A stretch of 54,921 bases of DNA from Actinomycetota bacterium (lineage in GTDB: Bacteria; Actinomycetota; Geothermincolia; Fen-727; Anoxymicrobiaceae), in contig JAFGMY010000079.1 in assembly GCA_016927325.1 (NCBI GenBank), forward strand, positions 1 through 54,921. Direction: 5' to 3'. The number at the start of each line of letters is the position of its first letter. The first letter of the stretch is position 1. Positions 39,273 through 54,723 of this stretch are shown here, in pieces. Below the pieces are notes generated by a model, which ran no database searches, was not told the origin of the DNA, and worked only from the letters and a program-made list of their open reading frames with translations. The position numbers were made by a program, and so were the translations under genes.

Positions 39273-39326
39273 GCCGCGAATTTCCTTGTGAATTCCTGCC
39301 ATATGGGTAATTTTCCATTATTAACT

Positions 39327-39358
39327 AATAATAATGTCATATTATATACATTATTATT
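39327..39358. repeat. AT-rich 11-bp inverted repeat after mltG
   Basis: AATAATAATGT (39327-39337) and its exact reverse complement ACATTATTATT (39348-39358) flank the ten bases CATATTATAT. An AT-only palindrome like this is exceptional in this GC-rich context. It could be a protein-binding site. Confidence 0.8.
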
Positions 39359-39439
39359 GATAGTAGTGTTTATTGGGGATTAAGGGAAAAGGCCTGATTT
39401 CCGACTCATTAAATATCGGCAAGATACCGATAACAAGTA

Positions 39440-39619
39440 ATGGGAAGAGCAACCTTTCGTGCTTTTGGAGGTAGTATAGCTGATTTCCGTGAAGATAGTA
39501 TGCGAGGCATGTTTAGAGTGCTAAATGATGATAACACGGAGGGGGTTGCGATCGCTGGAAACAACGGTGGCGCGGTTTCATCTTTGGATTTGCAGACCTT
39601 ATTAAGGAGGGGCTGTTAA
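39440..39619 (+). CDS. doubtful 59-codon open reading frame
   Basis: ATG to TAA, 59 codons, beginning MGRATFRAFGGSIADF and ending LLRRGC. No clear Shine-Dalgarno precedes it. Third codon positions are less GC-rich than in the surrounding genes, especially in the first half. I recognise no family. It overlaps the region of predicted RNA stems only at its 3' side. It may be a small peptide, a gene remnant or chance. Confidence 0.2.
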   Translation: MGRATFRAFGGSIADFREDSMRGMFRVLNDDNTEGVAIAGNNGGAVSSLDLQTLLRRGC

Positions 39620-39628
39620 AGGCCGCGG

Positions 39629-39867
39629 TTTCCCCGCACTGTGCCGGGAAAAGGGGCCTCGAAAGAACTTTGTATGGGTGAGACGGCGCGGAGACCGGCT
39701 AATGGAATGGCCGGTTATTCAACAGTAGCCAGTGAAAATGCAGCTTGAATCAGGGCTGCTCCATAGACAAAAAAGCAAGGATGGACAGGGCAATGGTAGA
39801 AGTAAGAAAATGCGCCGGGTAACTTTCGAGGGCGGAACAGAAGGGGGAATTATTGACCCGGCCCTGT
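39629..39867 (+). ncRNA. candidate structured RNA / leader upstream of the Roadblock gene
   Basis: Consecutive stems can be drawn: TTTCCC (39629-39634) with GGGAAA (39646-39651), enclosing GCAC/GTGC; ACCGGC (39694-39699) with GCCGGT (39710-39715); ATTCAA (39717-39722) with TTGAAT (39745-39750); and a two-step helix, ACAGGG (39785-39790) with CCCTGT (39862-39867) outside CCGGGT (39815-39820) with ACCCGG (39856-39861). I could not match it to a known riboswitch or RNA class. Strand is assumed from the downstream gene. Confidence 0.3.
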
Positions 39868-39925
39868 GATAAAATTGAATTGAAGAAGCGTCGCATTACT
39901 TGACGGAAAAGTAAAATAGCAATAT

Positions 39926-39951
39926 TTGACAATTTCCTGATTCAATATAAG
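39926..39951 (+). promoter_or_regulatory. weak promoter candidate for the Roadblock operon
   Basis: A perfect -35, TTGACA (39926-39931), is followed by TATAAG (39946-39951) at a short 14-base spacing. A second -35-like TTGACG starts at 39900. The spacing is not ideal, so this is tentative. Confidence 0.3.
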
Positions 39952-39985
39952 AGAATGGTTGCGGAGGATCACTTAGGAGGCGCAC

Positions 39986-40384
39986 TTGGACGGTGCGAAG
40001 AGGAACGAACTTCAGGAGGCTTTGGAGCAGCTCCTGGAAACATCCAAGGATATTGAAGCTGCGGCCGTGGTAAGCATGGACGGATTTCCAATGGCTTCAA
40101 TAATTCCTGAGGGATATGAAAGTGAAAGGCTGGGCGCAATGTCCGCGGCTCTATTGAGCCTTGGTGAAAGAACGGCGAATGAGTTAAAGCGCGGTGAGTT
40201 GGCCCAGGTCTTCGTTGAAGGTTCCCAGGGGTATGTCTTTGTTCTTGCCGCGGGTGAAGATACGGTATTGACGGCTGTGGTGAAACGCGGCGGAAAGCTG
40301 GGAATGGTCCTCTACGATATTCGCAAAACGGCGAAACGGGTAGCTGGGATTGCAGGGTCTCATCTACAGGCCGAAGTCGAGTAA
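39986..40384 (+). CDS. Roadblock/LC7-domain protein (MglB/CvnB-like)
   Basis: A 132-residue single-domain Roadblock/LC7 protein: a helix (QEALEQLLETSKDIEAA), the core strand AAVVSMDGFPMAS, and the second half with VFVLAAGEDTVLTAVV. Proteins of this type bind small Ras-like GTPases, as MglB does for MglA (as a GTPase-activating protein), or belong to Streptomyces conservons (CvnB). The TTG start follows AGGAGG by five bases. The next two genes encode a DUF4388 protein and a CvnD-like GTPase, so the three probably form one switch. Confidence 0.87.
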   Translation: MDGAKRNELQEALEQLLETSKDIEAAAVVSMDGFPMASIIPEGYESERLGAMSAALLSLGERTANELKRGELAQVFVEGSQGYVFVLAAGEDTVLTAVVKRGGKLGMVLYDIRKTAKRVAGIAGSHLQAEVE

Positions 40385-40399
40385 ATTAACGGGGTACAA

Positions 40400-43300
40400 A
40401 TGCCGCTAAAGGGAAACCTAAAAGATTTCAGCCTTCCCGATTTATTTCAATTGATTCATTTCGGGAAGAAAAGTGGCAAGCTTACCATCTCGAGAGGTGA
40501 CATAGAAGGATATGTGTGCTTCCGGGATGGTGATGTGACTTACGCCACCCATAATACGAATAAAGTATTGATAGGTCAGCTGCTCGTGCGCGCACGGGTT
40601 GTAACCGACAAGCAGGTCGCGGAAGCTCTTGAGCTGCAGAAGACGGTACACAAGGACAAGCTGATAGGCAGCATCCTGGTGGAGCTCAAATACATTACGG
40701 ATGAAACGCTCGAGCTCTTCATCAAGGAGCAGATAAAGGAATCGGTATTTAATCTGCTGATGTGGAATGACGGAGCTTTCGATTTCGATCCCGACGATAA
40801 GCTCGAAGAGGACATCGGCGTTTCAATGGGTGCGGAAGAGCTCATCCGGGAAAGCAGGAAGCGTCTCGGCGAATGGATGGATATCGAAAGCAGGATCCCG
40901 ACGCTTGATGCGATTTTCTCCAAGACTTCCGCTGGAAAGAAAAATCCGGAAAGGCTGAAAATACCGGAAGAGGAGGTATTGACCCTTGAATACATTGACG
41001 GTACGAATACCGTCAGGGATATCGCCAGGCAGAAGGGTGAGCCGGCTCTCGAGACATGCAAATCCATCAGCAACCTCGCTGGCGCAAAACTCATCAAGCT
41101 GGTAGGTGAGAAGGGTGGCGAATCAGGTGGATCGGCGGAAACTCTTCAAGAAGAAATCGATTTTTATGAGGAAGAGTCCGCTACGCTGACTGAGACAAAG
41201 CCGCCTGATGAGGGAACACTTGAGTATTATAAATGGCTCGCGCTCCAGGAAGCCATGAACTGTGAAAGAGTAGGTATTTTCAAGGCGGCGGCCCGCGAAA
41301 AGGTAAGCGAGGAAGGACCCTTAGTCGTAAAAGAAGCACCGGAAGACAACTCGTCAAAGGCTGAAGCTGAAGAAGTTGAAGAGGAAGAAGAAGTTGGGGT
41401 AATAAAGAAACTGGTCATTGACGGGTTGGAGAAACCGGAAGATTTCGCTGTCGACTGGTCCGACGACCTTATCGGGATGCTGGACAAAGAAAAAGCTGAT
41501 GATGAGATAAGTGAAAGCATAAGAGCGAACCATGTCGATCTGGATGAAAAAGATGACTTAATCGGAATTTCGCTGGAAGGCTTCGAAGATATGGTGCCGG
41601 AAAAAGACCTGGCCGATGAGGGACTCAGAGGGCCCCTGACCGGTGAGACTCTTGATGACGGGGGCTCTTCTCTTCTCTCCGAAGAGGACATCGAAAAGCT
41701 TATGGGTTTGAAATCAAAGCCAAGAGAAGAAATGAGCCGTGAGGAGTTGCTCACTTTTGACCAGCCAACTTACCCGATTATTGAACCGATGCCGGGCGAG
41801 CGTGATGAACTCTCAGTTGAGGAAGAAGTTGCGCGCGAAGAAGCTGACTCCATGGAGGAAAGGGCCAGGAAAGTGCTGGCCGAGATAATGGAGGGCAGGG
41901 AAGGAAGGGAAGACTACACTTTCGATTCACAGAAGGAACAGGAAGAGGAAGATAAAGCGGAGACCTATTCTCTGGAGGAACTATCAGACATTTTCGAGGA
42001 TGGATCGGAAGCCGGGGAAGAAGAGGTTGTCAAAACCGAGGTTGAAGAAGTAGTCGTTGAAGCTGCGGAAGAAGAGTATTTGGATTCAGGTCGGGAGGAA
42101 TACGCGGTAGCGGAAACGGCGGCGGAAGTTGCAGAAGAAGAGCCGGTTGAGGTTGAAGAAGAGGTCCCGGTGATAGAGGTTGACAAGGAAGTCACCGGAG
42201 TTGAGCTTGAGGCGGAAACCGAAGAAGATTCTCTTGAATATTACAAGAAGCTTGCTCTGGAGAACGATACGGAGATACTAGACGCGGAGTTCGTGGCTGA
42301 CGGAGAAACCGCTGAAGAGATAATAGCTCCGGAAAAGATCATTAGAGAGGTTGAAGCTGAGGTTGAGGAAGAGGCAGCTGAAGAGGAGACAGTTGAAGAA
42401 GTAGCTGAAGCAGCGGATGAAGAAGTCGCCGAAGGTGAGCCCGAGGAAGAAGTCGCCGAGGTTGAGGAGGAAGTCGCCGAAGCTGAGCCCGGGAAAGAGA
42501 CAGCTGAAGAGGAAGCGGCCGAAGAAATAGCCGAAGCTGAGGAGGAAGTTGTTGAAGCTGAAGCAGCGGAGGAAGTCGCCGAAGCTGAACCCGGGAAGGA
42601 GACAGCTGAAGAGGAAGCGTCCGAAGAAATAGCCGAAGCTGAGGAAGAAGTCGCCGAAGCTGAGCCCGAAGAAGGAGTCGCCGAAGCTGAGCCCGGGAAA
42701 GAGACAGCTGAAGAGGAAGCGGCCGAAGAAATTGCCGGGATTGAGGAAGAAGTTGTTGAAGCTGAAGCAGCGGAGGAAGTCGCCGAAGCGGAAGCCGCCG
42801 GGACTGAGGAAGAAGCTGCTGAAACAGCAGGAGAAGTCGCCGAGGTCGAGGTTGAGGCTGAGGCAGTTGAAGAAATAGCTGAAGCAGCGGAGGAAGTTGC
42901 CGAAGCTGAACCCGGGAAAGAGACAGCTGAAGAGGAAGCAGCTGAAGAAATTGTCGGGACTGAGGAAGAAGTTGTTGAGGCAGCGGAGGAAGTTGTTGAA
43001 GAGGACACCGCCGAGGAAGTTGAAGAAATAGCTGAAGCAGTGGAAGAAGAAGTTGTTAAAGCTGAAGTAGCGGAAGAAGTCGCCGAGGTTGAGGTTGAGG
43101 AAGATGCGGCCGAAGAGGAAGCAGTTGAAGAAATAGCCGAACCCGGGGAAGAAGTCTCCGAGGTGGCGGAGGAAGTTGCCGATATGCTTGATGAGCTGGA
43201 GAGCCTTGAAGCGGAAGAGTCGGCTGAAGAGAATGAAATCCAGGGCCGTGTTATTCAGTTCGATAAAGCATCCACAAAACAAGATCAGGACGAAGATGTG

Positions 43301-44662
43301 CTTATTATCGTCCAGGAGGAAAGCGAACCACGCGTCAGGTTGGATGAGATGCCCGAGGCGGCCGCTCTTGAGCTGGAGATCGATTCAGAGGAGGAGTCGC
43401 CGGAAGAGGCTCTGGATGATATAGGAAGCGCTCTGGAGATGAGCGAAGAGCTCATGGATGAAACGGAAATACCGCTTGTTTTTGATGAGAGTGGTTCGTC
43501 TGTTGAGATGGAAGATGCTGAAGCGGAAAAGGCTGCCTCGGAAGATGAGGAAGAGGAGCTTGTGATAGAGGGATTGGAGGAGTCGCCGGGGGATTTGATT
43601 CCGGAACACAGTGAATCATCACCCGATCTTGCCGAAGTCATAGATATTACGGGTACAGACAAGACAAAAGTCCCGGAGGATGAAGTGGCGGAAGTCCTGA
43701 CCGGGATTTCCCCTGCAGAAACCGAGATCGCCGCCGCCGAAGAGGAAAGCGATACAGCACAAGCCGACGTTGAAGCTTCAACTCATGAGGCCGAAGCACA
43801 GGTTATTCCGGAAGAGGAGACCGCCGAAGAAGTAAGTGAAGTTTTTACTGAGGCGCTCGAGCCCGAAACCGCTTATCCGGAAGAGGAGTTGGCCACAGAA
43901 GCGGTGGAAGAGGAAGAAGGGGCCGGTGCGCGGTATATCAAGACGGAAGAACCGGCAGCGGAAACCGTTGAGCAGCCGGAAGCCGGAGAGCCGGCCGCAG
44001 CTTTGGAGGAAATGGCGGCCGACATGGTTCCGGAGCCGACTGCATATGAAGAAGATGAAATGCCGGCACAGGCGCCGGTTGAGGATATAACTGATGAACT
44101 GCAGGCAGGGGGTGTGGTTGTGGCGGTGGAAGAGCCGGGCATCGGCACCGACGAACTTGCTGAAATCACTGGTGGGTACTCCCTTCCCCAGGGCGAGACA
44201 GGCAGTGCCGAGATGGAAGCCGTCGTGTCGGACGGTGCGGAAACCGGAGAGGATGAAGAAGAGGAGTGGGAAGAGGAGTACGAAGAAGAAGAGTATGAGT
44301 ATGAGGATGAAGAGGAAGAGATCGGGGAAGAGGTCGAGCAAGAGATTGAGGAAGTGGAAGAGGAGTACGAGGAAGAAGCTGAAGAGCCTGGACTATTTGA
44401 TTCAATGCGGGTGAGGGGCAAGAGGGACGCGGGAACGAGTTTACTGGATCTGGAGACCCTTGAACTCGAACAGGAGTTAAAAGACCTGGTAGGTATACCA
44501 CAGACACAGAAGAAGAGAAGGCCTGTTGATGCGGATGAAGCAGGTGATAAAGGTAAGAAAAAGGAAAAGAAGAGCAGAGGATTCATGTCCCGCGGCAGAG
44601 GCCGCAAGGAGGTCAACAAGGGATCAGGTGAGAAGACTGTAAATGACCTGGATGAGTTCTAG
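40400..44662 (+). CDS. giant acidic DUF4388-domain protein
   Basis: A 1420-residue protein. Residues 1-160 are a DUF4388 (PatA-N-like) domain: LKDFSLPDLFQLIHFGKKSGKL, then a helical insert at 58-112 resembling MshEN repeats, then NLLMWNDGAFDFDP. A small helical module (about 192-236, LTLEYIDGTNTVRDIAR) follows. From about 250 to 1345 the protein is dominated by Glu, Ala and Val, contains 34-residue repeats, and is presumably extended or helical. The final 45 residues are basic (KKKEKKSRGFMSRGRGRK) before NDLDEF. The short motif LEYYKxLAL occurs twice (274-282, 612-620). No enzyme domain is visible. I infer a scaffold linking the Roadblock protein and GTPase to the pilus machinery. Confidence 0.85.
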   Translation: MPLKGNLKDFSLPDLFQLIHFGKKSGKLTISRGDIEGYVCFRDGDVTYATHNTNKVLIGQLLVRARVVTDKQVAEALELQKTVHKDKLIGSILVELKYITDETLELFIKEQIKESVFNLLMWNDGAFDFDPDDKLEEDIGVSMGAEELIRESRKRLGEWMDIESRIPTLDAIFSKTSAGKKNPERLKIPEEEVLTLEYIDGTNTVRDIARQKGEPALETCKSISNLAGAKLIKLVGEKGGESGGSAETLQEEIDFYEEESATLTETKPPDEGTLEYYKWLALQEAMNCERVGIFKAAAREKVSEEGPLVVKEAPEDNSSKAEAEEVEEEEEVGVIKKLVIDGLEKPEDFAVDWSDDLIGMLDKEKADDEISESIRANHVDLDEKDDLIGISLEGFEDMVPEKDLADEGLRGPLTGETLDDGGSSLLSEEDIEKLMGLKSKPREEMSREELLTFDQPTYPIIEPMPGERDELSVEEEVAREEADSMEERARKVLAEIMEGREGREDYTFDSQKEQEEEDKAETYSLEELSDIFEDGSEAGEEEVVKTEVEEVVVEAAEEEYLDSGREEYAVAETAAEVAEEEPVEVEEEVPVIEVDKEVTGVELEAETEEDSLEYYKKLALENDTEILDAEFVADGETAEEIIAPEKIIREVEAEVEEEAAEEETVEEVAEAADEEVAEGEPEEEVAEVEEEVAEAEPGKETAEEEAAEEIAEAEEEVVEAEAAEEVAEAEPGKETAEEEASEEIAEAEEEVAEAEPEEGVAEAEPGKETAEEEAAEEIAGIEEEVVEAEAAEEVAEAEAAGTEEEAAETAGEVAEVEVEAEAVEEIAEAAEEVAEAEPGKETAEEEAAEEIVGTEEEVVEAAEEVVEEDTAEEVEEIAEAVEEEVVKAEVAEEVAEVEVEEDAAEEEAVEEIAEPGEEVSEVAEEVADMLDELESLEAEESAEENEIQGRVIQFDKASTKQDQDEDVLIIVQEESEPRVRLDEMPEAAALELEIDSEEESPEEALDDIGSALEMSEELMDETEIPLVFDESGSSVEMEDAEAEKAASEDEEEELVIEGLEESPGDLIPEHSESSPDLAEVIDITGTDKTKVPEDEVAEVLTGISPAETEIAAAEEESDTAQADVEASTHEAEAQVIPEEETAEEVSEVFTEALEPETAYPEEELATEAVEEEEGAGARYIKTEEPAAETVEQPEAGEPAAALEEMAADMVPEPTAYEEDEMPAQAPVEDITDELQAGGVVVAVEEPGIGTDELAEITGGYSLPQGETGSAEMEAVVSDGAETGEDEEEEWEEEYEEEEYEYEDEEEEIGEEVEQEIEEVEEEYEEEAEEPGLFDSMRVRGKRDAGTSLLDLETLELEQELKDLVGIPQTQKKRRPVDADEAGDKGKKKEKKSRGFMSRGRGRKEVNKGSGEKTVNDLDEF
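42485..42960 (+). repeat. 102-bp (34-residue) repeats within the DUF4388 gene
   Basis: The unit EPGKETAEEEAAEEI recurs with near-identical DNA at residues 696, 730, 764 and 837. The first three copies are exactly 34 codons apart; the fourth is offset by 73. Between units, EEVVEAEAAEEVAEAE also recurs. The high DNA identity suggests recent expansion by recombination or slippage. Confidence 0.88.
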
Positions 44663-44677
44663 AAACTTGGAGGTTGT

Positions 44678-45217
44678 TTGGATCGTATCTACAAGATCCT
44701 CGTTGCCGGTCCCTTCAATTCCGGAAAGACGACGTTTATCAGTTCCATAAGCGATATAGATGTCGTGTCCACTGAGCGCGATACCGGGGTTGGTAAGAAA
44801 AAGTGCGGGACGACCGTAGCCATGGATTTCGGCCGTATCGCACTCAAGGGTGGGAATGTCATGCATCTGTACGGCACTCCCGGCCTCAAGCGTTTCGATT
44901 TCATGTGGGAAGTGCTCTCCGGAGGCATTCTGGGGTATGTGCTCCTGATTGATGGAACGAGGCCTTCTACCCATGAGAAAGCCCGGTCGGTTCTGGAGTC
45001 TTTTGAGGGCAAGCTGGAAGTCCCGGTAGTGGTCGGGATTACGAGATCCGACCGCCGGAACTGCATGGGCCCCGCGAAAGCAAGAGAAAAATTGGGCCGG
45101 AGCGACCTCGAGATTATCCCCTGCGATGCACGGAGAGTGCAGGACGTAAAAGCTGTTCTTGTCGCGTTGCTGGACAAAGTAAAGGAACAAGAGGGGACGG
45201 TCCGAAGGGTCGTTTGA
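44678..45217 (+). CDS. small GTPase of the CvnD / MglA-like class
   Basis: A 179-residue P-loop protein. G1 is GPFNSGKT (11-18), a conserved switch-I-like segment is TTVAMDFGRIAL (45-56), and the switch II motif is YGTPGLKRFDFMW (65-77), where Asp of the canonical DxxG is replaced. G4 is TRSD (122-125) instead of NKxD. These features match the Streptomyces conservon GTPases (CvnD) rather than MglA itself. It should cycle with the Roadblock protein as partner. The TTG start follows GGAGGTTGTT. It is followed 18 bases later by aroE, which is unrelated in function but part of the conserved mltG-aroE-pil neighbourhood. Confidence 0.87.
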   Translation: MDRIYKILVAGPFNSGKTTFISSISDIDVVSTERDTGVGKKKCGTTVAMDFGRIALKGGNVMHLYGTPGLKRFDFMWEVLSGGILGYVLLIDGTRPSTHEKARSVLESFEGKLEVPVVVGITRSDRRNCMGPAKAREKLGRSDLEIIPCDARRVQDVKAVLVALLDKVKEQEGTVRRVV

Positions 45218-45235: not shown

Positions 45236-46102
45236 ATGCACATAGATGGTGATACACGGCTTGCGGGTATTATTGGGAACCCCCTCCATCACACGATGTC
45301 GCCCGCCTTGCATAACGCCGCATTTGATTATCTTGGCTTGAATTGGTGTTATATTCCATTTCCGGTTGAGAGGTCATCGGTAAAAGAAGCTGTTGAGGGA
45401 ATGAAGGCGCTGGGTTTAGTCGGCTTGAATGTAACGATGCCGTTCAAAACCGAAGTTATACCGCTGCTGGATGAAGTGGCGGTTTTCGCCGAGACGGTAG
45501 GCGCGGTAAATACAATTCTGCTGGATAAGGGAAAGCTGATCGGCTATAACACCGACGGAAGGGGTTTCTACACCGCACTCGCCAAAGACCTCGGATACGA
45601 GGTTAAAGGCCGGAAAGTGCTGGTAATGGGTGCCGGTGGAGCCGCGAGGAGCGTTACCGTTTCACTTGCTCTGGCGGGGTGCGCCTCGATTACAATTCTT
45701 AACAGGTCGCTTGAAAAGAGTGAGCGGCTGGTGGGGATCATATCAAAGAGCGCGCCCGGTGTCCGGGTTGCATGTCTGAGGCCTGACGAGGATTACGATA
45801 TGGTGGTTGCGGAGTCGGACATTATTATTAATGCTACTCCCATTACCAATTTCAACGGTTCCGTTCTGAGGGTGCCGGTGTCAATGTTGAACAGGAATCA
45901 ACTGGTATGTGATCTGAATTATACAGTTTATCAACCACCGTTTCTTCAGGAAGCCTCCGCGAGAGGGGCGCGCGTGATAGACGGCAAGGGCATGCTGCTC
46001 TATCAGGCCGCGGCGGCGTTTGAGATATGGACGGGTCTGGAAGCGCCGGTCGAAGTGATGCGGATGGCACTGCTCAGGGCACTGGAGGAGGCCCGCATTT
46101 GA
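45236..46102 (+). CDS. aroE: shikimate 5-dehydrogenase
   Basis: A 288-residue enzyme reducing 3-dehydroshikimate to shikimate with NADPH. The substrate site is IGNPLHHTMSPALHNAAF and VTMPFKTEV (catalytic Lys), the nucleotide loop is MGAGGAARSV and NRSLEKSERL, and GKGMLLYQAA is the C-terminal signature. The length is normal. It sits between the GTPase gene and pilB, 47 bases before pilB. Confidence 0.96.
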   Translation: MHIDGDTRLAGIIGNPLHHTMSPALHNAAFDYLGLNWCYIPFPVERSSVKEAVEGMKALGLVGLNVTMPFKTEVIPLLDEVAVFAETVGAVNTILLDKGKLIGYNTDGRGFYTALAKDLGYEVKGRKVLVMGAGGAARSVTVSLALAGCASITILNRSLEKSERLVGIISKSAPGVRVACLRPDEDYDMVVAESDIIINATPITNFNGSVLRVPVSMLNRNQLVCDLNYTVYQPPFLQEASARGARVIDGKGMLLYQAAAAFEIWTGLEAPVEVMRMALLRALEEARI

Positions 46103-46149: not shown

Positions 46150-47850
46150 ATGGAAAAACCGAAACAGGACCGCCTGGGCCAGCTACTTCTGGAAAACAAC
46201 ATATTGACAGTGGAGCAACTGGAAGCCGCCCTTCAGGAACACCAGAAGACAGGCAAGTCACTCGGTCGTGTTCTGGTGGATTTAGGGATGTTATCGGAGG
46301 GAAAGCTTACTGCGGTCCTGGCGGCTCAGATAGGGATCCGTTTTATCGATATCGGCACATACAAAGTAGATCCCGCCGCCGCCACACTGATAGACGATTC
46401 ACTTGCCAGGAGGCATTTCGCATGTCCTATTGATTTTGACAACGGCAGGCTTGTGGTCGCAATGGTAGACCCTACCAACGTTTATGCTCTCGACGACCTG
46501 CGGATAACCACCGGCATGGAGATTCTCCCCGTTATCAGCACCAAGAATGATATAGAGGCGGCCATAGGCAGGTATCTGCACAGTAGCTCCGATATGGACG
46601 AGGCGTTCGATGAAATTCCTTCTCTGGAGGGTGAGGGTGATGAGGGGGAAGAAAATTCAGAGGCGGAACTCCGTGAAGCGGGCGAAGACGCACCCATTGT
46701 AAAGTATGTGAATCTCATAATTACCGAGGCTGCAAATGAAAAAGCCAGCGACATCCACATTGAACCAGGTGAAAAAGACGTCCGGATACGCTATAGAATT
46801 GACGGCGTACTCCACGAAATTCGAAGGTCGCCCAAGAGAATCCACCCGGGGCTGGTGTCCAGGCTGAAGATTATGGCGAGCATGAATATCGCGGAGAGGA
46901 GGGTCCCCCAGGACGGAAGGTGCGCGGTAATGGCGGGAGACAAGGAAATCGACCTTAGAATCGCTTCACTGCCGACCGTGCACGGAGAGAAGGTGGTTTT
47001 GAGACTCCTGGACCGTTCATCGATATTGATATCCCTGAGCGACCTCGGTATCCTTCCGGAACCCCTGAAGCTGTTCAGCGATTCTTTCCATAAACCTTAC
47101 GGAACGGTCGTCGTAACCGGACCTACCGGTTCCGGAAAGACTACCACGATGTATGCCGCCCTTTCCGAGCTCAACAAGCGGGAGGTCAACGTCATCACCG
47201 TTGAAGACCCCGTTGAGTACCAGATGTCCGGGATAAACCAGGTACAGGTGAACACCAGGGTAGGGTTGACGTTCGCCGCGACGTTGAGGTCCATATTGAG
47301 ATGTGACCCCGACATTGTCATGATAGGTGAGATCCGTGATGGCGAAAGCGCGAAGATGGCGATCGAATCCGCCCTTACGGGTCACCTCGTTTTGTGCACC
47401 CTCCACACCAACGACGCTCCGTCGGCGATGACCCGTTTGACTGAAATGGGCGTTGAACCTTTCCTGATCGCGTCCGCTGTTGACAGCATTGTCAGCCAGA
47501 GACTCGCCAGGCGTCTCTGCAGAAGGTGTAAACAGCCGGCTGAATACGAAAAGGAGTACCTTCAGAAAATAGATTTTTATTCCGAAGATGAAGAGGAAAT
47601 TGAAATATTCAGGGCGAATCCTAACGGGTGTCCTTTCTGCAACGGTGCGGGATATCGCGGGCGGGTTGGCGTGTACGAAGTCCTTGTGGTCGATGAAGAA
47701 ATTGAGAAGATGGTAGTCGACATGGCTACGGCGCGCGAGATCGGGCAGGAGGCAAGGAGAAGAGGAATGTCCACTCTGCGGGAGGATGGTTTTCACAAAG
47801 TCAAGCAGGGAATTACATCAATTGAAGAAGTATTAAGAGTGGTAATGTAA
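46150..47850 (+). CDS. pilB: type IV pilus assembly ATPase PilB
   Basis: A 566-residue GspE/PilB-type hexameric ATPase that powers pilus extension. The N-terminus (8-61) is an MshEN domain with two repeats (RLGQLLLENN.. and SLGRVLVDLG..); in other PilB/MshE proteins this domain can bind c-di-GMP. An acidic linker (about 150-180) follows. The ATPase has Walker A GPTGSGKTTT (about 324-333), DPVEYQMSGINQVQV, Walker B PDIVMIGEIRD and the zinc-binding C-x2-C pairs (CRRCKQ, CPFCNGAG). The ATG is at the beginning of the frame. pilT, pilC and pilins follow in order. Confidence 0.96.
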   Translation: MEKPKQDRLGQLLLENNILTVEQLEAALQEHQKTGKSLGRVLVDLGMLSEGKLTAVLAAQIGIRFIDIGTYKVDPAAATLIDDSLARRHFACPIDFDNGRLVVAMVDPTNVYALDDLRITTGMEILPVISTKNDIEAAIGRYLHSSSDMDEAFDEIPSLEGEGDEGEENSEAELREAGEDAPIVKYVNLIITEAANEKASDIHIEPGEKDVRIRYRIDGVLHEIRRSPKRIHPGLVSRLKIMASMNIAERRVPQDGRCAVMAGDKEIDLRIASLPTVHGEKVVLRLLDRSSILISLSDLGILPEPLKLFSDSFHKPYGTVVVTGPTGSGKTTTMYAALSELNKREVNVITVEDPVEYQMSGINQVQVNTRVGLTFAATLRSILRCDPDIVMIGEIRDGESAKMAIESALTGHLVLCTLHTNDAPSAMTRLTEMGVEPFLIASAVDSIVSQRLARRLCRRCKQPAEYEKEYLQKIDFYSEDEEEIEIFRANPNGCPFCNGAGYRGRVGVYEVLVVDEEIEKMVVDMATAREIGQEARRRGMSTLREDGFHKVKQGITSIEEVLRVVM

Positions 47851-47882: not shown

Positions 47883-48959
47883 GTGGAAAGCAAGGCTTTA
47901 AGACTTGATATCAACGAGTTGCTCAAGGAGGTTTTGGAAAGAGGGGCATCCGACCTTCATCTAACCGTTGGCGTTCCACCCGTTCTGCGCATAAACGGTG
48001 TTCTACAGAGAATGGACCTCCCAAAAATGACCAGCAACGATACTCGCGATCTGGTTTACAGTATTCTCACAGCCAGGCAGAGGGAAGCCCTTGAAAGCAA
48101 TCTCGAGTTTGACCTCTCCTACTCGGTTCCCGGCAGCGCAAGGTTCAGGGTAAACGCGTTTTTCCAGCGCAACAGCGTGGGCGCGGCGTTCAGGATAATC
48201 CCGTACCGCATCAAGACGGTGGAGGAGCTCAGGCTGCCTCTTATTATCAAGGAATTCGCGCGCCTTCCCAGAGGTTTTGTGCTGGTTACCGGGCCGACCG
48301 GCCAGGGTAAATCCACCACGCTCGCGACTATAGTGGATCTCGTGAACTCGACAAGGGAAGAGCATATCATTACCGTCGAGGACCCGATAGAGTTTCTTCA
48401 TGTACACAAGAAATGCATTGTGAACCAGAGGGAAGTGGGTTCGGACACCCACTCTTTCGCAAACGCCTTGAAGTTTGTGTTGAGACAGGACCCCGACGTC
48501 ATACTGATCGGCGAAATGCGTGATCTGGAGACGATATCGACCGCTCTTACCGCGGCTGAAACCGGACACCTGGTATTCGCTACACTTCACACACAGGACG
48601 CCCCGCAGTCTATTGATAGAATTATTGACGTATTCCCGACTTACCAGCAGCAGCAGGTGAGGCTGCAGCTCTCCACCACGCTCCAGGCGATCGTGACACA
48701 GCAGTTGGTACCCACCAAAGACCGCAGGAGCAGGGTTGCGGCTTGTGAGATCATGATAGCCACTGCAGCGATTAGAAATATGATACGCGACGGGAAAGTC
48801 CATCAGATCTATTCCGCGATGCAGGCTGGAGGTCAGCTCAGGATGCAGACCATGGATGCGTCGCTCGCCTCGCTGTTCCGTGCCGGGCAGATTACCTTTG
48901 AGACGGGGCTGGCCAGGTCGCACAACAAGGATGACTTCAGAAGGCTTGTCGGCCAGTAA
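47883..48959 (+). CDS. pilT: type IV pilus retraction ATPase PilT
   Basis: A 358-residue PilT that depolymerises pili. It has an N-terminal PAS-like domain (GASDLHLTVGVPPVLRING), Walker A GPTGQGKSTT (about 137-146), Walker B PDVILIGEMRDLET, the GHLVFATLHTQDAPQSIDR segment and the PilT-specific AIRNMIRDGKVHQIYSAMQAG region (in two parts). Its presence means pili are retractile, supporting twitching or DNA uptake. The GTG start is 32 bases after pilB. Confidence 0.96.
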   Translation: MESKALRLDINELLKEVLERGASDLHLTVGVPPVLRINGVLQRMDLPKMTSNDTRDLVYSILTARQREALESNLEFDLSYSVPGSARFRVNAFFQRNSVGAAFRIIPYRIKTVEELRLPLIIKEFARLPRGFVLVTGPTGQGKSTTLATIVDLVNSTREEHIITVEDPIEFLHVHKKCIVNQREVGSDTHSFANALKFVLRQDPDVILIGEMRDLETISTALTAAETGHLVFATLHTQDAPQSIDRIIDVFPTYQQQQVRLQLSTTLQAIVTQQLVPTKDRRSRVAACEIMIATAAIRNMIRDGKVHQIYSAMQAGGQLRMQTMDASLASLFRAGQITFETGLARSHNKDDFRRLVGQ

Positions 48960-49070: not shown

Positions 49071-50291
49071 TTGACTACAGAATTTTCATATACGGTCAGG
49101 GACAAAGCCGGCAAGGAAATAACCGGCACCCTGGAAGCTGACAACGCGGACGTTCTCGCAGGCAAACTGAGCCAGATGGGGTATACGGTTGTCGCCATCG
49201 ATGAAATCAAGCAGTCGCTTGGAAAAAAGGAAATCAGAATCTTCGGGGCAAAGAAGGTGGAGAGCCATGAAATAGTTATTTTCACCCGGCAGTTCGCCAC
49301 CATGATCAACGCCGGCCTTCCTCTGATCAAGTGCCTGAGCATTCTCGCCCAGCAGACGGAGTCCACTTCTCTTTCCGATATAATCGCCGAGTGCCAGAAA
49401 GATGTCGAAGCGGGGCACTCGCTTTCGGATGCCCTGGCGAAGCACCCCAAGGTCTTCCAGAGGTTGTACGTCGCGATGGTACGTGCCGGAGAACTCGGCG
49501 GTATGCTGGATGACGTGCTGCTCAGGATAGCGAACCAGCTGGAGCGCGAGGAGGAGATAAGGCACAAGATCAAGTCCGCGCTTACTTATCCAATCGCCAT
49601 TGGTGCTATAACACTGATGCTGATGGGATTGATGATTTTTTTCGTCGTTCCGAAGTTCGCGGCCATGTTCGCGCAGATGGGGGGCTCACTTCCGGCTTTC
49701 ACCCAGTTTCTTGTCAATATCAGCCATTTCGCGACTGGCATCGGGGGGCTGATTCTGGTGATAGTAATTATAGGCCTGGTCATCGCTTTCAGACGCTTCA
49801 AGGCCACCGATACGGGGCGTTACACGATTGACAGGATTAAGCTGAAGATGCCTATTGTCGGTGTACTCTTTCACAAGAACGCCCTGTCAAAGTTTTCGAG
49901 GACCCTCGGAACACTGCTTTCATCAGGTGTTCCAATACTCGGGGCTCTTGAGATCACCGGTGAAACAACCGGGAATATGGTTGTCACCAAGACCCTGGAG
50001 GACGTCAGAGAGAGCGTCAAAGAGGGTGAGACTATCGCCAAGCCGCTTTCACAGTCGAAGGTGTTTCCACCGATGGTTACCCAGATGATAGCGATAGGTG
50101 AAGAGACCGGAGCGCTTGATGTCATGCTTTCAAAAGTGAGCGATTTCTACGACTCGGAGGTCAACTCGGCGGTTGACAGCTTGACCTCAATGCTGGAGCC
50201 GGTCATGATGGTTGTCCTTGGCGGGGGCGTCGGGACCATCGTGGTCGGTCTGTATCTGCCTATATTCCGTGTCATAACAATGATCAAATAA
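49071..50291 (+). CDS. pilC: type IV pilus inner membrane platform protein PilC
   Basis: A 406-residue GspF/PilC protein with two related cytoplasmic helical domains (FTRQFATMINAGLPLIKCL and FSRTLGTLLSSGVPILGAL) and three membrane segments. It anchors the PilB/PilT motors at the membrane base. The TTG start follows GGGAGGTCAATC. It lies 111 bases after pilT and 113 before the first pilin. Confidence 0.95.
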   Translation: MTTEFSYTVRDKAGKEITGTLEADNADVLAGKLSQMGYTVVAIDEIKQSLGKKEIRIFGAKKVESHEIVIFTRQFATMINAGLPLIKCLSILAQQTESTSLSDIIAECQKDVEAGHSLSDALAKHPKVFQRLYVAMVRAGELGGMLDDVLLRIANQLEREEEIRHKIKSALTYPIAIGAITLMLMGLMIFFVVPKFAAMFAQMGGSLPAFTQFLVNISHFATGIGGLILVIVIIGLVIAFRRFKATDTGRYTIDRIKLKMPIVGVLFHKNALSKFSRTLGTLLSSGVPILGALEITGETTGNMVVTKTLEDVRESVKEGETIAKPLSQSKVFPPMVTQMIAIGEETGALDVMLSKVSDFYDSEVNSAVDSLTSMLEPVMMVVLGGGVGTIVVGLYLPIFRVITMIK

Positions 50292-50404: not shown

Positions 50405-50761
50405 ATGAGAAAACTACTTAGCAGGTCAGAGGGATTCACCCTGATTGAGCTCATGATTGTAATCCTGATTATCGCAATCCTAGTAGCTATCGCGGTTCCT
50501 GTTTTCCTGAACGCAAGGGCAAACGCCCAGAAAAGGACATGTCAGGCGAACCAGAGGACTATCGACAGTTCAATCCAGAGCTATGAGTCGACTCTGACCG
50601 ATCCGGCGTATCCAGCTTCGTTGGCTGATATGACGATGCCTGGAACGAAGACGCTGAAGAATATTCCGAAGTGTCCGGCACACGATACAAACCAGTACAC
50701 ATATGTTAACAGTATTCCGCCTTATGTAGTGTGTCCTAATGATTCTGGACACACAATATAG
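50405..50761 (+). CDS. pilA: type IV pilin (major pilin candidate)
   Basis: A 118-residue prepilin. A short basic leader ends in EG, followed by FTLIELMIVILIIAILVAIA, so prepilin peptidase should cleave after G11 and methylate F12. The E5 equivalent is present. The mature part is short and resembles ComGC-like small pilins: TCQANQRTIDSSIQ, then CPAHD, YVVCPNDSGHTI, with three Cys in the globular part. An excellent RBS and its position directly after pilC suggest the main fibre subunit. Confidence 0.93.
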   Translation: MRKLLSRSEGFTLIELMIVILIIAILVAIAVPVFLNARANAQKRTCQANQRTIDSSIQSYESTLTDPAYPASLADMTMPGTKTLKNIPKCPAHDTNQYTYVNSIPPYVVCPNDSGHTI

Positions 50762-50822: not shown

Positions 50823-50933
50823 ACGATATTGGGAACAGTTTTCTGGCACGCACCGTATCTGGACGAATCCTGCTGACGTGAAAAACAGTTCATGGTGGGT
50901 TCGCTTCACATGCGTCGGGGGTGTGAGTTGATA

Positions 50934-51287
50934 ATGAATAAAATGGCTTTCAGGGTGGAGGGTTTTACATTAATCGAGCTTATGATCGTCATACTGATAA
51001 TAGCAATCCTGGTAGCTATCGCGGTTCCTGTTTTTCTGAGTGCAAGGGCCAACGCCCAGAAAAGGACTTGCCAGGCGAACTTAAGGACGGTCGACGGATG
51101 CGTCCAGAGCTACTCTGCCAGCTTCGGAGCAACTGTGTATCCAGCACGTCTTTCAGATATGATCGAGCCTGGAACCAGGCTGATGAAATCCGATCCCATG
51201 TGTCCGGCAGGGGAGATGGACTACCTGTGGATAAGCTCAGAGCCGCCTCATATCTCGTGTCCAAACGAAACCGAACACACAATTTGA
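50934..51287 (+). CDS. type IV pilin, second tandem copy
   Basis: A 117-residue prepilin closely related to the preceding one, with leader MNKMAFRVEG and the same FTLIELMIVILIIAILVAIA core. DNA identity is high over about 110 bases of the N-terminal region, showing duplication. The globular part keeps the pattern TCQANLRT, CPAGE, SCPNETEHTI but differs elsewhere. The start is not certain: ATG 50934 is chosen, and an upstream in-frame ATG at 50892 would make an unusually long leader. The RBS is much weaker than that of pilin 1. Confidence 0.9.
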   Translation: MNKMAFRVEGFTLIELMIVILIIAILVAIAVPVFLSARANAQKRTCQANLRTVDGCVQSYSASFGATVYPARLSDMIEPGTRLMKSDPMCPAGEMDYLWISSEPPHISCPNETEHTI

Positions 51288-51348: not shown

Positions 51349-53643
51349 TTATTCGTCAGTTGTTGAAGAACCGTTGTCTTCCAGTTTTTGACGGGCCGAA
51401 GGTCCGTAAGCTCCGGTTTTATCCAGTTCTATAACCTTCACGTATTTTGTTTGTGCTTCTCTTGGCCGTCCCAGACCAGTGAGAGTATCACCATACACGA
51501 GGTAAGCTTTCGCGTTCCCCGGGTCCATTTCGACCGCCTTTTCAATCTCGCGGAGAGCCGCGGGGAAGTTGCCTGCCATATTCAAGACTTCCGCGAGATC
51601 GATGTAATAACTTACCGTGTCCGGCTTAAAAGCTATTAGCTTGTCGAGTTCCGCTATCGCCTGCGGATACCGGCCGGTTGCCGTGTATGCCATGGCAAGG
51701 CTCGGGGAAAGGAAGTCGGGGTCGATCTTACGGGCACCGGGGAGTATCCGGACCGTTTCTTCATAGTTTTCTTCCTTGTTGAGAGACAGGCCGAGAAGCT
51801 CAAAAGCGTTTGAGAATGTGTTGCAGCTGTACAGGGTGGGAACGTAGATGTTTTTCATGAACTTTTCAATGGTGTCTTCATAAACCGAGGTTGCCTCCGG
51901 GAGCATTTTCTTCGACAGAAGAACATTGGCTTTGAACAGCATCGGAAGAAGCACCGATTCGCGGGCGTCGGTGTCCACGTTTTCACTGAAACTGCCTTTA
52001 TTGGAGTATTTCGCGGCTGTGTTGTTGTTCAAATCCGGCTCAACGCCCGGAGGTAAGATGCGGACGAGGTACCCAGACCAGGAAACGTTCCAGTTGAACT
52101 CCACAAAATTGCTTACAGCAGAAAACATATTAAGGAATCCCAGGTTCCTTTGCACGATATTAATGTAATCGAGGGCCGCCGGGTCGGGCTTGTGCCCGGT
52201 ACGCGTTCTTAAAAGGAGATCCGAACCTCGAAAACCCGGGACTGTTGTCGCTTCGGGTATCACAAGCCGGGCCTCCGGATTTACTCCCTCGACCGTCTGC
52301 ATGTACATGCAGGGAAAGAAAATGTTGTCGTCCTCGAAGAATACGATTGATTCGGGGCCCGCAGTATCCAGTATATCCCGGGCCATATCCTCTGCGTAAG
52401 TGTAGCGGCTCTTGTCGATCTTGCCGTAGTGGATCAAACATGAAACCACCGGGCAAAGGGCAAGGATAAAAATGACCGATACGAGTGAGGCCTTTCCCGC
52501 GGCTTTCCATGCCGTGTGCTTGAAAGATCCGGCCATTTTCACGGCCCCGGCTGCGGCGAAGCCGATCCACAGCGAAAATATCATGTAGCTGGGATAGTAG
52601 AAATGGGCCCTCAACACCGGCTCCAGCTGGCTGTAGGTCATTACCGGCAAAAGGGCGAGAATGAACAGAAACAGGAAGAACAACGGGTACTTCCTGCGCT
52701 TGTCGAACACAGAGTAGATAAATCCGGCGCCCCCCAGCCAGGCGAAGTACGGGAACTCGGTGTTGAGTGTTCCGAAGTATCGCCAGAAACGTGATGGCAG
52801 GTAAAGATAGGGGTATTTAAAGAGACCGCTTCTCTGGTGGCGGAATGTGACATGCTCAAACCATCGGGCGGGGGTGGAAGGGTCTCCGTAGTTATAGGCG
52901 GGGCCGCGGAAAGCGGCTGCTGGTTCGTAAATGTAAGGTAGAAGGCCGAGTGCAAGAAACGCCGCCATTCTAAGCAGGTTGCGGGGCGCGAGTGCGTCTT
53001 TCCAGCTTGTGTCAATGAAGAAGAAGACGAACGCGGGCAGCAGAAACAGGGTCGTTATGTGATTGGATATGGCCAGCCCGAAACTGAAAGCGAAGAGACA
53101 GAGAATATTGTCGGCTTTTTTCCTGTTTTCATCCTTGATGGAGCTTTCCCACTTGAGTGCAAGGAGAATGAGAAGTGCCATGAAGAATGTATTCAGGCTG
53201 TAAGTCTCGGGGATCACGGTCTGGTACCAGTAGGAGTAGCTGAATGAGAAGGCCAGCGCTCCAACGATTCCACCCGTGCGGCTCCGGTAAATCCTGAAGA
53301 TTATGAGGTACATCAGGCATGCGGTAAGCGAAGCGAAAAGGCCGGAGTACAAGCTTACCCTGAACGCCAGGGGGCCTACGGGGAAGAGCAGGGTGAAAAG
53401 CCTGGCGGTAATCATATACAACGGAGAGCCGGGGCCGTGGATGTTGCCGGTGGTGGCAATACCGAGAAGGAAGTCTCCCGAATCGGAAAACGTGACGGTC
53501 CGTGCCGCAGGCAGAATATGAAGGATAATGGTTAGAATGAACAAAAAGATTAGTATAAGACGGTTGTCTATGTTCCCGCCGGGGAAAGCAGCCGCCTTGA
53601 TTTTCTTGAAGTCTGAAATGGAGGCACTCTTTATTTTCAGCAT
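51349..53643 (-). CDS. DUF2723-type polytopic membrane protein with C-terminal TPR repeats
   Basis: A 764-residue protein. Residues about 28-430 hold ten or so membrane helices, and the first external loop has FSDSGDFLLG (D54, D57), the acidic pair typical of GT-C-type glycosyltransferases in the DUF2723 family. HFYYPSYMIF and an external domain follow. Residues about 600-755 contain TPR-like repeats (RYPQAIAELDKLIAFKPDT, NFPAALREIEKAVEMDP). It probably transfers sugar from a lipid carrier to protein or glycan. Its location between the pilins and the prepilin peptidase raises the possibility of pilin glycosylation (inference). Transcribed opposite to its neighbours. Confidence 0.75.
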   Translation of the reverse strand: MLKIKSASISDFKKIKAAAFPGGNIDNRLILIFLFILTIILHILPAARTVTFSDSGDFLLGIATTGNIHGPGSPLYMITARLFTLLFPVGPLAFRVSLYSGLFASLTACLMYLIIFRIYRSRTGGIVGALAFSFSYSYWYQTVIPETYSLNTFFMALLILLALKWESSIKDENRKKADNILCLFAFSFGLAISNHITTLFLLPAFVFFFIDTSWKDALAPRNLLRMAAFLALGLLPYIYEPAAAFRGPAYNYGDPSTPARWFEHVTFRHQRSGLFKYPYLYLPSRFWRYFGTLNTEFPYFAWLGGAGFIYSVFDKRRKYPLFFLFLFILALLPVMTYSQLEPVLRAHFYYPSYMIFSLWIGFAAAGAVKMAGSFKHTAWKAAGKASLVSVIFILALCPVVSCLIHYGKIDKSRYTYAEDMARDILDTAGPESIVFFEDDNIFFPCMYMQTVEGVNPEARLVIPEATTVPGFRGSDLLLRTRTGHKPDPAALDYINIVQRNLGFLNMFSAVSNFVEFNWNVSWSGYLVRILPPGVEPDLNNNTAAKYSNKGSFSENVDTDARESVLLPMLFKANVLLSKKMLPEATSVYEDTIEKFMKNIYVPTLYSCNTFSNAFELLGLSLNKEENYEETVRILPGARKIDPDFLSPSLAMAYTATGRYPQAIAELDKLIAFKPDTVSYYIDLAEVLNMAGNFPAALREIEKAVEMDPGNAKAYLVYGDTLTGLGRPREAQTKYVKVIELDKTGAYGPSARQKLEDNGSSTTDE

Positions 53644-53799: not shown

Positions 53800-54723
53800 T
53801 TGACCTGGTTTTATTATCTGGTTGCGGCGGGCTTCGGCCTTATACTCGGCAGCTTCTTCAATGTTTGTATCTACAGGATACCGATCGGGATGACCCTGGG
53901 TGACAGGTCTATTTGCCCCCACTGCGGCGCCGGTGTCAAATGGTATGATAACGTGCCGCTTGCAAGTTTTGTCGCCCTCCGGGGCAAATGTCGTAGCTGT
54001 AAAGGCCGGATCTCGTGGCGCTACCCGCTGGTAGAGGCCTTGAGCGGCGCCTTGTTTGCCTCCACTTACTGGTGGAGCATTAATGTCGTCCCGGATTACC
54101 TGGGGGTAGAAGGCGGTCCGTTCGTGCCCGAGCTTCTGATCGGCCTGCTTTTTATCTCAATATTGCTGATAGTCGCGTTTATTGACTATGACCACGGCAT
54201 TATCCCGAATGTGGTGATTATTCCAGGCGCGGCCGCCATGTTTTTTCTTGTGGTCGGAGTATCCATATATAGAGAAGATCCGATCAGGATCGCACAGGCT
54301 GCGGCTACCGGTATACTGTTCGCCGTGTTTCTATTCTTAATCGGCTTGATTGTCGGAACCGCGGTATTGAAGGGTGCCGAGCAAGAAGAGGCAGACAGTA
54401 AAGAAGATGTGGGCCCCTTCAGGTACAGTGAAAAGCATTGTAAAGATGATGACAACGGGGAAGAGGAGGAAGACGAACTGCCGCTGGCACTCGGTTTCGG
54501 CGACCTTAAACTTGCGTTGTTCATGGGTCTTGCCCTCGGGTATTTCAACTGGTTTTTTATCCTTGTCGCTGTCATCACCGGTTGTGTTTTGTCATTAATA
54601 ATTGCCATAATTTACCAGATTCCAGGAAGAAAAAAAATTACTTTTGGACCGTTCCTTGCTGTTGGATCCATTGTGGCCCTTTACTGGGGGCCATACTTCT
54701 ATCAGTTGCTCTTTCACTATTAA
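53800..54723 (+). CDS. pilD: prepilin peptidase / N-methyltransferase
   Basis: A 307-residue A24 aspartic peptidase that cleaves prepilin leaders and methylates the new N-terminus. It has the cytoplasmic zinc motif C39-x2-C42 and C64-x2-C67 of the methyltransferase-containing type, NVCIYRIP, and the two catalytic aspartates D129 (FIDYDHGIIPN) and D235 (GFGDLKLA). A cytoplasmic insertion (about 193-228) rich in Glu and Asp precedes the second active-site motif and is unusual. The TTG start follows GGAGACATCAA. It serves the pilins encoded just upstream. Confidence 0.94.
   Translation: MTWFYYLVAAGFGLILGSFFNVCIYRIPIGMTLGDRSICPHCGAGVKWYDNVPLASFVALRGKCRSCKGRISWRYPLVEALSGALFASTYWWSINVVPDYLGVEGGPFVPELLIGLLFISILLIVAFIDYDHGIIPNVVIIPGAAAMFFLVVGVSIYREDPIRIAQAAATGILFAVFLFLIGLIVGTAVLKGAEQEEADSKEDVGPFRYSEKHCKDDDNGEEEEDELPLALGFGDLKLALFMGLALGYFNWFFILVAVITGCVLSLIIAIIYQIPGRKKITFGPFLAVGSIVALYWGPYFYQLLFHY

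Follow-up and report, generated by a model that had tools for sequence, protein, structure and literature searches.

Why does a Ras-like GTPase gene, with two tightly spaced companions, sit just ahead of the type IV pilus (T4P) motor genes of an uncultured actinobacterium? To our knowledge, detailed work on Ras-like GTPases in the control of bacterial pili is confined to a handful of lineages, among them Myxococcus, Thermus and Bdellovibrio. The locus lies on contig JAFGMY010000079.1 of assembly GCA_016927325.1 (Actinomycetota, class Geothermincolia, family Anoxymicrobiaceae), contig 131 in a metagenome-assembled genome (MAG) of 2.47 Mb that is 82% complete; "the window" denotes the whole 54,921-nucleotide stretch analyzed. 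On the plus strand, it encodes the Roadblock/LC7 protein ROBL2 (39986..40384; 132 amino acids (aa), TTG start; PF03259, E=2.3e-17), a 1420-aa PATAN/DUF4388 protein (40400..44662; PF14332, E=3.1e-28) and a small MglA-family GTPase of 179 aa, also with a TTG start (44678..45217), recognized by small-GTPase Pfam models, alignment, a tree and an AlphaFold2 (AF2) model. The three genes are separated by 15 bp each and the GTPase gene from the following aroE by 18 bp, and Shine-Dalgarno-like sequences precede the Roadblock and GTPase genes. The first-pass annotation had placed this tight triad with the right coordinates and strands, and the Pfam matches confirm the protein families. On balance, the sequence evidence favors reading it as a PATAN-coupled MglA-type GTPase switch of the T4P motor that is reduced in this organism and probably does not cycle.

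We searched for the GTPase in 59 relatives, then in 397 genomes across the phylum, and fetched and re-annotated the neighborhoods. At checkable loci, where the contig extends far enough to judge the position of pilB, pilB lies downstream of the GTPase in 23/23 cases in the class and 21/22 elsewhere in the phylum, that is 44/45 in total, from 16 families; the sole exception is a second, divergent copy adjoining a regular one. The PATAN gene is directly upstream of the GTPase at 18/19 class loci and 27/29 other pilus-type loci. Because this order recurs across 16 families, the arrangement is far beyond chance, and pilB stays downstream of the block despite local rearrangements that put aroE upstream or downstream or insert an extra pilB-like gene. 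The proposal that a distinct GTPase system is physically tied to the T4P cluster thus holds, and the scattering of the triad away from pilus genes in relatives, which had been named as the result that would speak against it, does not occur within the phylum. Outside the phylum, the association does not extend: in Chloroflexota and Aquificota the PATAN-GTPase pair is present at 30/32 loci and near pilB at none of the 24 checkable ones. Since the pair is common in Chloroflexota without pilus genes, it is not itself pilus-specific. It is old and not intrinsically a pilus device, and in Actinomycetota it is hard-wired to pilBTC.

Several genomes carry variants of the locus. A second, divergent PATAN-GTPase-Roadblock set stands beside the regular pilus-linked one at L206:7970-11365 and L205:1878-5671. 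In genome G312, which also has a regular pilus locus, a second PATAN-GTPase pair with a CAARQ G3 motif (L213:1717-6968) lies near another T2SSE-type ATPase (E=9e-81). In the aroE-Roadblock interval at L185:13094-14776, L188:6081-7763, L190:5785-7467 and L194:5395-7071, there is a further PilB-like ATPase bearing an MshEN domain, so that two PilB-type motors flank the switch genes there. In Chloroflexota (L062, L064, L072, L075, L076, L078 and others), one gene family and alpha/beta-hydrolase-like genes recur downstream of the pair; the V4R model matches the family member at L075 (6120-6809) only weakly (27 bits, below the cut-off of 31), hinting that V4R-type ligand sensing may be a general partner of this GTPase class.

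What links the triad to the motor may be the PATAN protein. PF14332 matches it at 98.7 bits against a curated cut-off of 25, and the AF2 model of residues 1-257 (predicted local distance difference test (pLDDT) 89.0) places helices at 57-120, so that it shows both the score and the helical insertion of PATAN proteins. The insert (residues 58-111; 40571..40732, plus strand) matches the MshEN model NF053729 at 40.9 bits (cut-off 38), and profile comparison finds it homologous to the N-domain of PilF, PilB and MshE (Thermus PilF, E=1.8e-10; PilB, E=1e-4; MshE, E=1.5e-4). The size of the protein, earlier described as a 1420-residue scaffold, is correct and is due to an acidic linker (31% Glu past residue 260); its actual makeup is a PATAN domain with the PilB-like MshEN insert, the variable linker and a C-terminal motif. 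Lengths run from about 270-310 aa in Chloroflexota through 320-720 aa elsewhere in the phylum to mostly 880-1440 aa in the class. The conserved parts are its two ends. In relatives the C terminus approximates [KR]x[LVI][LVI]x[RK][LI]IxG[IV][KR]xL-COOH, an amphipathic, basic-hydrophobic helix; among some 80 PATAN C termini from Actinomycetota, Chloroflexota, Aquificota and Caldisericota, 72 have Ile at -7 and 76 have Arg or Lys at -9. The window copy ends in a degenerate version of it, KGSGEKTVNDLDEF (44618..44659, plus strand). From this anatomy we infer that the protein may be a tether between the motor side and the GTPase or Roadblock.

Two other leads on the domain were set aside. A fold search with the PATAN model (window 40400-41170) returned no significant PDB match (best E 0.014), and a weak likeness to GATOR1/KICSTOR, whose subunits regulate Rag GTPases, was non-significant (E about 0.02) and judged noise. 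The MshEN motif that binds cyclic di-GMP consists of two RLGxx(L/V/I)(L/V/I)xxG...Q repeats (PMC5013675). Although the window protein passes the NF053729 threshold, it was rejected as a receptor for this nucleotide, since each repeat has lost its RLG Arg and its turn Gly (now L57, R66, L88, K97), and relatives keep repeat II only, with its Arg mostly present (32/41) and that of repeat I missing.

The GTPase itself carries an unusual substitution. Its motifs are GPFNSGKT (P-loop), TTVAMDFG (G2), GTPGL (G3), a G4-like TRSD and CDAR (G5), and its AF2 model (pLDDT 86.5) most closely resembles Asgard Arf 8oum and M. xanthus MglA 6izw. Leu70 (CTC; 44885..44887, plus strand) stands where 142 of 146 aligned GTPases have the catalytic Gln of switch II. 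Two base changes separate CTC from a Gln codon, so Leu70 is not a single read error. The switch II segment GTPGLKRFDFMW, reported in the first pass as matching CvnD, therefore does so incompletely, as the Gln of GTPGQ is kept in 19/19 CvnD proteins. The orthologous group has the features of MglA groups 2-5, with a GTPGQ G3 motif and Thr in place of the Arg finger in G2, and the window shows the coupled MglB/Roadblock gene of those groups (ROBL2) but lacks the Gln. Judged by the alignment, Leu70 equals the Q82L substitution of MglA, which abolishes GTP hydrolysis and leaves MglB stably bound (PMC6876712, PMC2907295). Two other pilus-locus GTPases without the Gln, in genomes G018 and G180, also lack a Roadblock gene at the locus; G018 has none in its whole genome and G180 has Roadblocks only at other loci. 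Loss of the Gln and loss of Roadblock thus coincide in three unrelated families, a pattern noticed after the fact. The G018 protein (L049:4426-4890) has decayed independently, with GPRGAGKA as P-loop and GTQGM as G3, in a 91%-complete genome with no Roadblock gene anywhere.

Has the window locus also lost partners? The triad was correctly described as lying between mltG and aroE-pilBTC, but the gap of about 700 bp between mltG and the Roadblock gene holds a decayed second Roadblock gene, ROBL1 (39467..39828, plus strand), that had been overlooked, as had the degenerate state of the window copy as a whole. Every family member with a contig reaching across this site has an intact ROBL1; the remnant, traced by frameshift-aware alignment and profile score, aligns along its entire length at about 32% identity and contains 3 frameshifts and 1-2 stops. 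It scores 79-95 against 5/7 intact orthologues and 70 and 53 against the other two, and dinucleotide shuffles (500 per orthologue) reach at most 44-50 (0/500 each). Its profile score of 10.4 bits compares with a shuffle maximum of 4.4 (0/1000), and ROBL2 proteins score only 32-39 against the region, which is background. The interval 39273-39985 matched no Rfam family, and an RNA gene was rejected since the region holds this pseudogene. ROBL2, whose best PDB match is 7f8m (E=2.3e-20), is 71.5% identical to its family orthologues, and the Roadblock and DUF4388 families each have one copy in the 82%-complete genome.

In relatives, the order is mltG-V4R-HydS-HydL-Fd-Roadblock(s)-PATAN-GTPase-pilB, the inserted [NiFe]-hydrogenase-like module consisting of MvhG- and MvhA-like subunits, a ferredoxin of the 2[4Fe-4S] type and a V4R-like protein (L033:12283-15414 on the minus strand, L035, L037, L040, L043, L053 and L048). 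No remnant of V4R, HydS, HydL or Fd scored above shuffles in the window's mltG-Roadblock gap, and the large subunit, present in 7/8 other family genomes, was not found in this 82%-complete genome. The large subunit genes stop at CxxCGTH (or CxxCxxH) and encode no C-terminal maturation peptide; the NiFe-ligand cysteines are partly lost in sister families, and those members of family f5 that were read have a substitution at a second-position L1 cysteine. In G018, an MvhA-like gene lies on a different contig (L178) beside apparent heterodisulfide-reductase-type genes. Tentatively, in the class, the hydrogenase-like complex and two or three Roadblocks could together sense H2 or redox conditions and thereby determine the GTP state of a GTPase tethered to the pilus motor by PATAN; the window lineage might have shed this sensor while fixing the switch by a Q82L-type change. 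We hold this as a possibility rather than a probability. A literature search combining hydrogenase, type IV pilus and Roadblock found nothing.

The surviving genes have evolved at uneven rates. In Tajima relative-rate tests of window-specific versus sister-specific changes, PATAN (54 vs 17, p=1e-5) and Roadblock (18 vs 4, p=0.003) are accelerated and the GTPase weakly so, in one of five comparisons (26 vs 12, p=0.02). Differences were not significant for pilB (46 vs 41), aroE (13 vs 16; if anything slower in one comparison), alaS (65 vs 55) and mltG (27 vs 32). PATAN identity is 49.6% between the window and its family versus 76.8% within the family; the values for pilB are 71.9% and 73.2%.

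How might such a switch work? In its intact, ancestral form, the Roadblock proteins would act on the GTPase as a GTPase-activating protein (GAP) or regulatory platform, the PATAN/MshEN N-terminal domain would contact the PilB side of the motor, and the conserved C-terminal helix, across the long flexible acidic linker, would hold the GTPase or Roadblock; together, the three may license or place pilus extension. PilB is the most likely target because PATAN regulators act on PilB1 in Synechocystis, where PixE reportedly interacts with it (PMC7690835), and because MglA of M. xanthus works through SgmX to recruit PilB; two PATAN proteins are among the candidates listed with SopA in M. xanthus (PMC11580455). 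In the class, a signal, either redox or ligand, probably enters through the extra Roadblocks and the hydrogenase-like/V4R/ferredoxin module. In the window organism, these inputs are lost or decayed, given the ROBL1 pseudogene, the absence of the module at the locus and the degenerate MshEN residues and C-terminal motif; together with the Gln-to-Leu change, this would leave a switch that probably no longer cycles, being either locked with GTP or of structural use only, beside a pilus machine that stays under normal constraint. Gene content, synteny, clade membership, the pseudogene, the substitutions and the rate shift are direct observations; the partners, the direction of control, the locked state and the nature of the signal are what we infer from synteny, homology and the literature on related systems.

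Could the locus instead be a conservon, as the term "conservon-like" in the first-pass annotation implied? A divergent CvnB-CvnD unit that lost its kinase and had DUF742 replaced would presumably regulate transcription or development as in Streptomyces. The Roadblock and GTPase genes do adjoin, the G2 motif TTVAMDFG and the DAR of G5 are shared (a G5 DAR is also described for MglA Group 2; PMC4316618), and the next-best same-phylum matches are 13 Streptomyces-type CvnD copies in one genome. We nevertheless consider this very improbable. A maximum-likelihood tree was built from 135 GTPases, namely the pilus-type and CvnD proteins of Actinomycetota and those of Chloroflexota, Aquificota, Cyanobacteria, Pseudomonadota and a few others. 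In it, CvnD is monophyletic (support 100/97) and excludes the window GTPase, which groups with its own family, outside both CvnD and the Chloroflexota/Aquificota set (100/99). Search scores also separate, at least 178 bits for pilus-type GTPases versus 140-164 for CvnD-type ones. CvnD loci have Roadblock but no PATAN (0/19) and no pilB (0/9), and three genomes (G131, G140, G378) carry both GTPase types at separate loci. Next to the window triad, where the flanks are mltG, the pseudo-Roadblock, PATAN, aroE and pilB, neither a CvnA histidine kinase nor a CvnC (DUF742) protein was found; the kinase had rightly been called missing, and the idea that the PATAN protein fills a DUF742 slot falls with the conservon assignment, which clade and neighborhoods reject. 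What accompanies the pilus genes is a PATAN-coupled system of MglA type in its own right.

Decay and synteny raise two further alternatives. Relaxed selection in this lineage may have left the locus functionless and dying: the pseudogene, the missing module, Gln70Leu, the degenerate C-terminal motif and the accelerated PATAN and Roadblock all fit, as does the parallel decay in G018, where G1 and G3 are broken and the genome lacks Roadblock. We find this unlikely, as all three reading frames are intact, including one of 1420 codons, ROBL2 is still 71% identical to its orthologues, the P-loop, G2 and most of G3 are conserved, and the PATAN domain is modeled at pLDDT 89. Alternatively, a general signaling module of the Chloroflexota kind could merely sit in a conserved housekeeping/pilus super-operon and not act on pili. 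Chloroflexota and Aquificota do keep the pair or triad away from pilB, some Chloroflexota neighbors are V4R-like and hydrolase genes, and housekeeping genes share the synteny; yet three points make this improbable too: in Actinomycetota, rearrangements notwithstanding, the block precedes pilB at 44/45 checkable loci; the domain inserted in PATAN is of PilB type; and in other phyla PilB is a target of PATAN and MglA proteins. Several observations nonetheless weigh against a reduced switch of the pilus motor. With 0/24 Chloroflexota pairs near pilus genes, synteny could reflect an old cluster and not motor control, and aroE, mltG, ruvX and alaS are equally syntenic without being pilus genes. Many T4P-bearing Actinomycetota (pilT present) lack this GTPase, so that it must be dispensable for pili, a regulator and not a machine part. 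Most Chloroflexota have no local Roadblock and still keep the Gln, which weakens the link between the two losses; some comparisons also show a mild acceleration of pilT, pilC and ruvX; and in an 82%-complete MAG the lost genes could lie elsewhere in the genome.

Is the system new? Bioinformatic work has already placed PATAN genes near genes of MglA groups 1 and 5 and MglB (Wuichet and Sogaard-Andersen 2014, PMC4316618; Makarova et al. 2006 cited there). The kind to which the triad belongs is therefore not undescribed, although the first pass took it as the best candidate for an undescribed system; its fixed coupling to pilBTC, however, appears undescribed. Literature searches found nothing for Roadblock with DUF4388 and only unrelated material for DUF4388 alone. 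Those groups share the GTPG G3 motif, the lack of an intrinsic Arg finger (as in groups 2-5) and the MglB/Roadblock and PATAN genes; their associations are occasional, whereas here a fixed order is joined to pilBTC in 16 families, with a long acidic linker and conserved C-terminal motif in PATAN and, in the window, no catalytic Gln. The broad kind was thus previously noticed but uncharacterized, and its window version is reduced and probably not cycling. Conservons CvnA-D (PMC13343842) share Roadblock, a small GTPase, the phylum and the G2 motif, but here there is no histidine kinase or DUF742, PATAN takes part instead, and the GTPase falls outside CvnD, beside pilus genes. Myxococcus MglA/MglB-SgmX-PilB (PMC11580455, PMC6876712) likewise links a Roadblock GAP and a Ras-like GTPase to PilB and T4P, but its Group 1 GTPase has a TVPGQ G3 and an intrinsic Arg finger, in contrast to GTPG(Q/L) without one here; RomR, SgmX and FrzS were not found at the locus, the only place searched. 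Cyanobacterial PixE, LsiR and PixG (PMC7690835) share the PATAN domain and a proposed action on PilB1, but are photoreceptor-driven PATAN-CheY fusions, in contrast to the linker, GTPase partner and lack of a receiver domain here.

By neighborhood annotation, the plus strand continues downstream with aroE (shikimate dehydrogenase; 45236..46102), in the class a conserved passenger separating the GTPase from pilB, then pilB (the T4P extension ATPase, whose N terminus is likewise of MshEN type; 46150..47850), pilT (retraction ATPase; 47883..48959), pilC (platform protein; 49071..50291), two pilin genes (50405-50761 and 50892-51287) and pilD (prepilin peptidase; 53800..54723). Between the pilins and pilD, on the minus strand, lies a TMEM260-like O-mannosyltransferase/TPR membrane protein gene (51349-53643), perhaps encoding a pilin glycosylation enzyme, whose position is also kept in L035, L040 and L043.

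Altogether, the locus adds another GTPase architecture physically locked to pilBTC across a phylum, in which coupling between GTPase and motor is testable with three genes, and a PATAN protein whose opposite ends bear a PilB-type domain and a conserved, docking-like motif. It also separates pilus-linked systems from conservons, their otherwise likely annotation. If the hydrogenase-like module does set the switch in the class, type IV pili there would be under hydrogen- or redox-responsive control. The window itself is a natural experiment, in which one Roadblock and the upstream module have been lost and the substitution that locks MglA in the laboratory is present.

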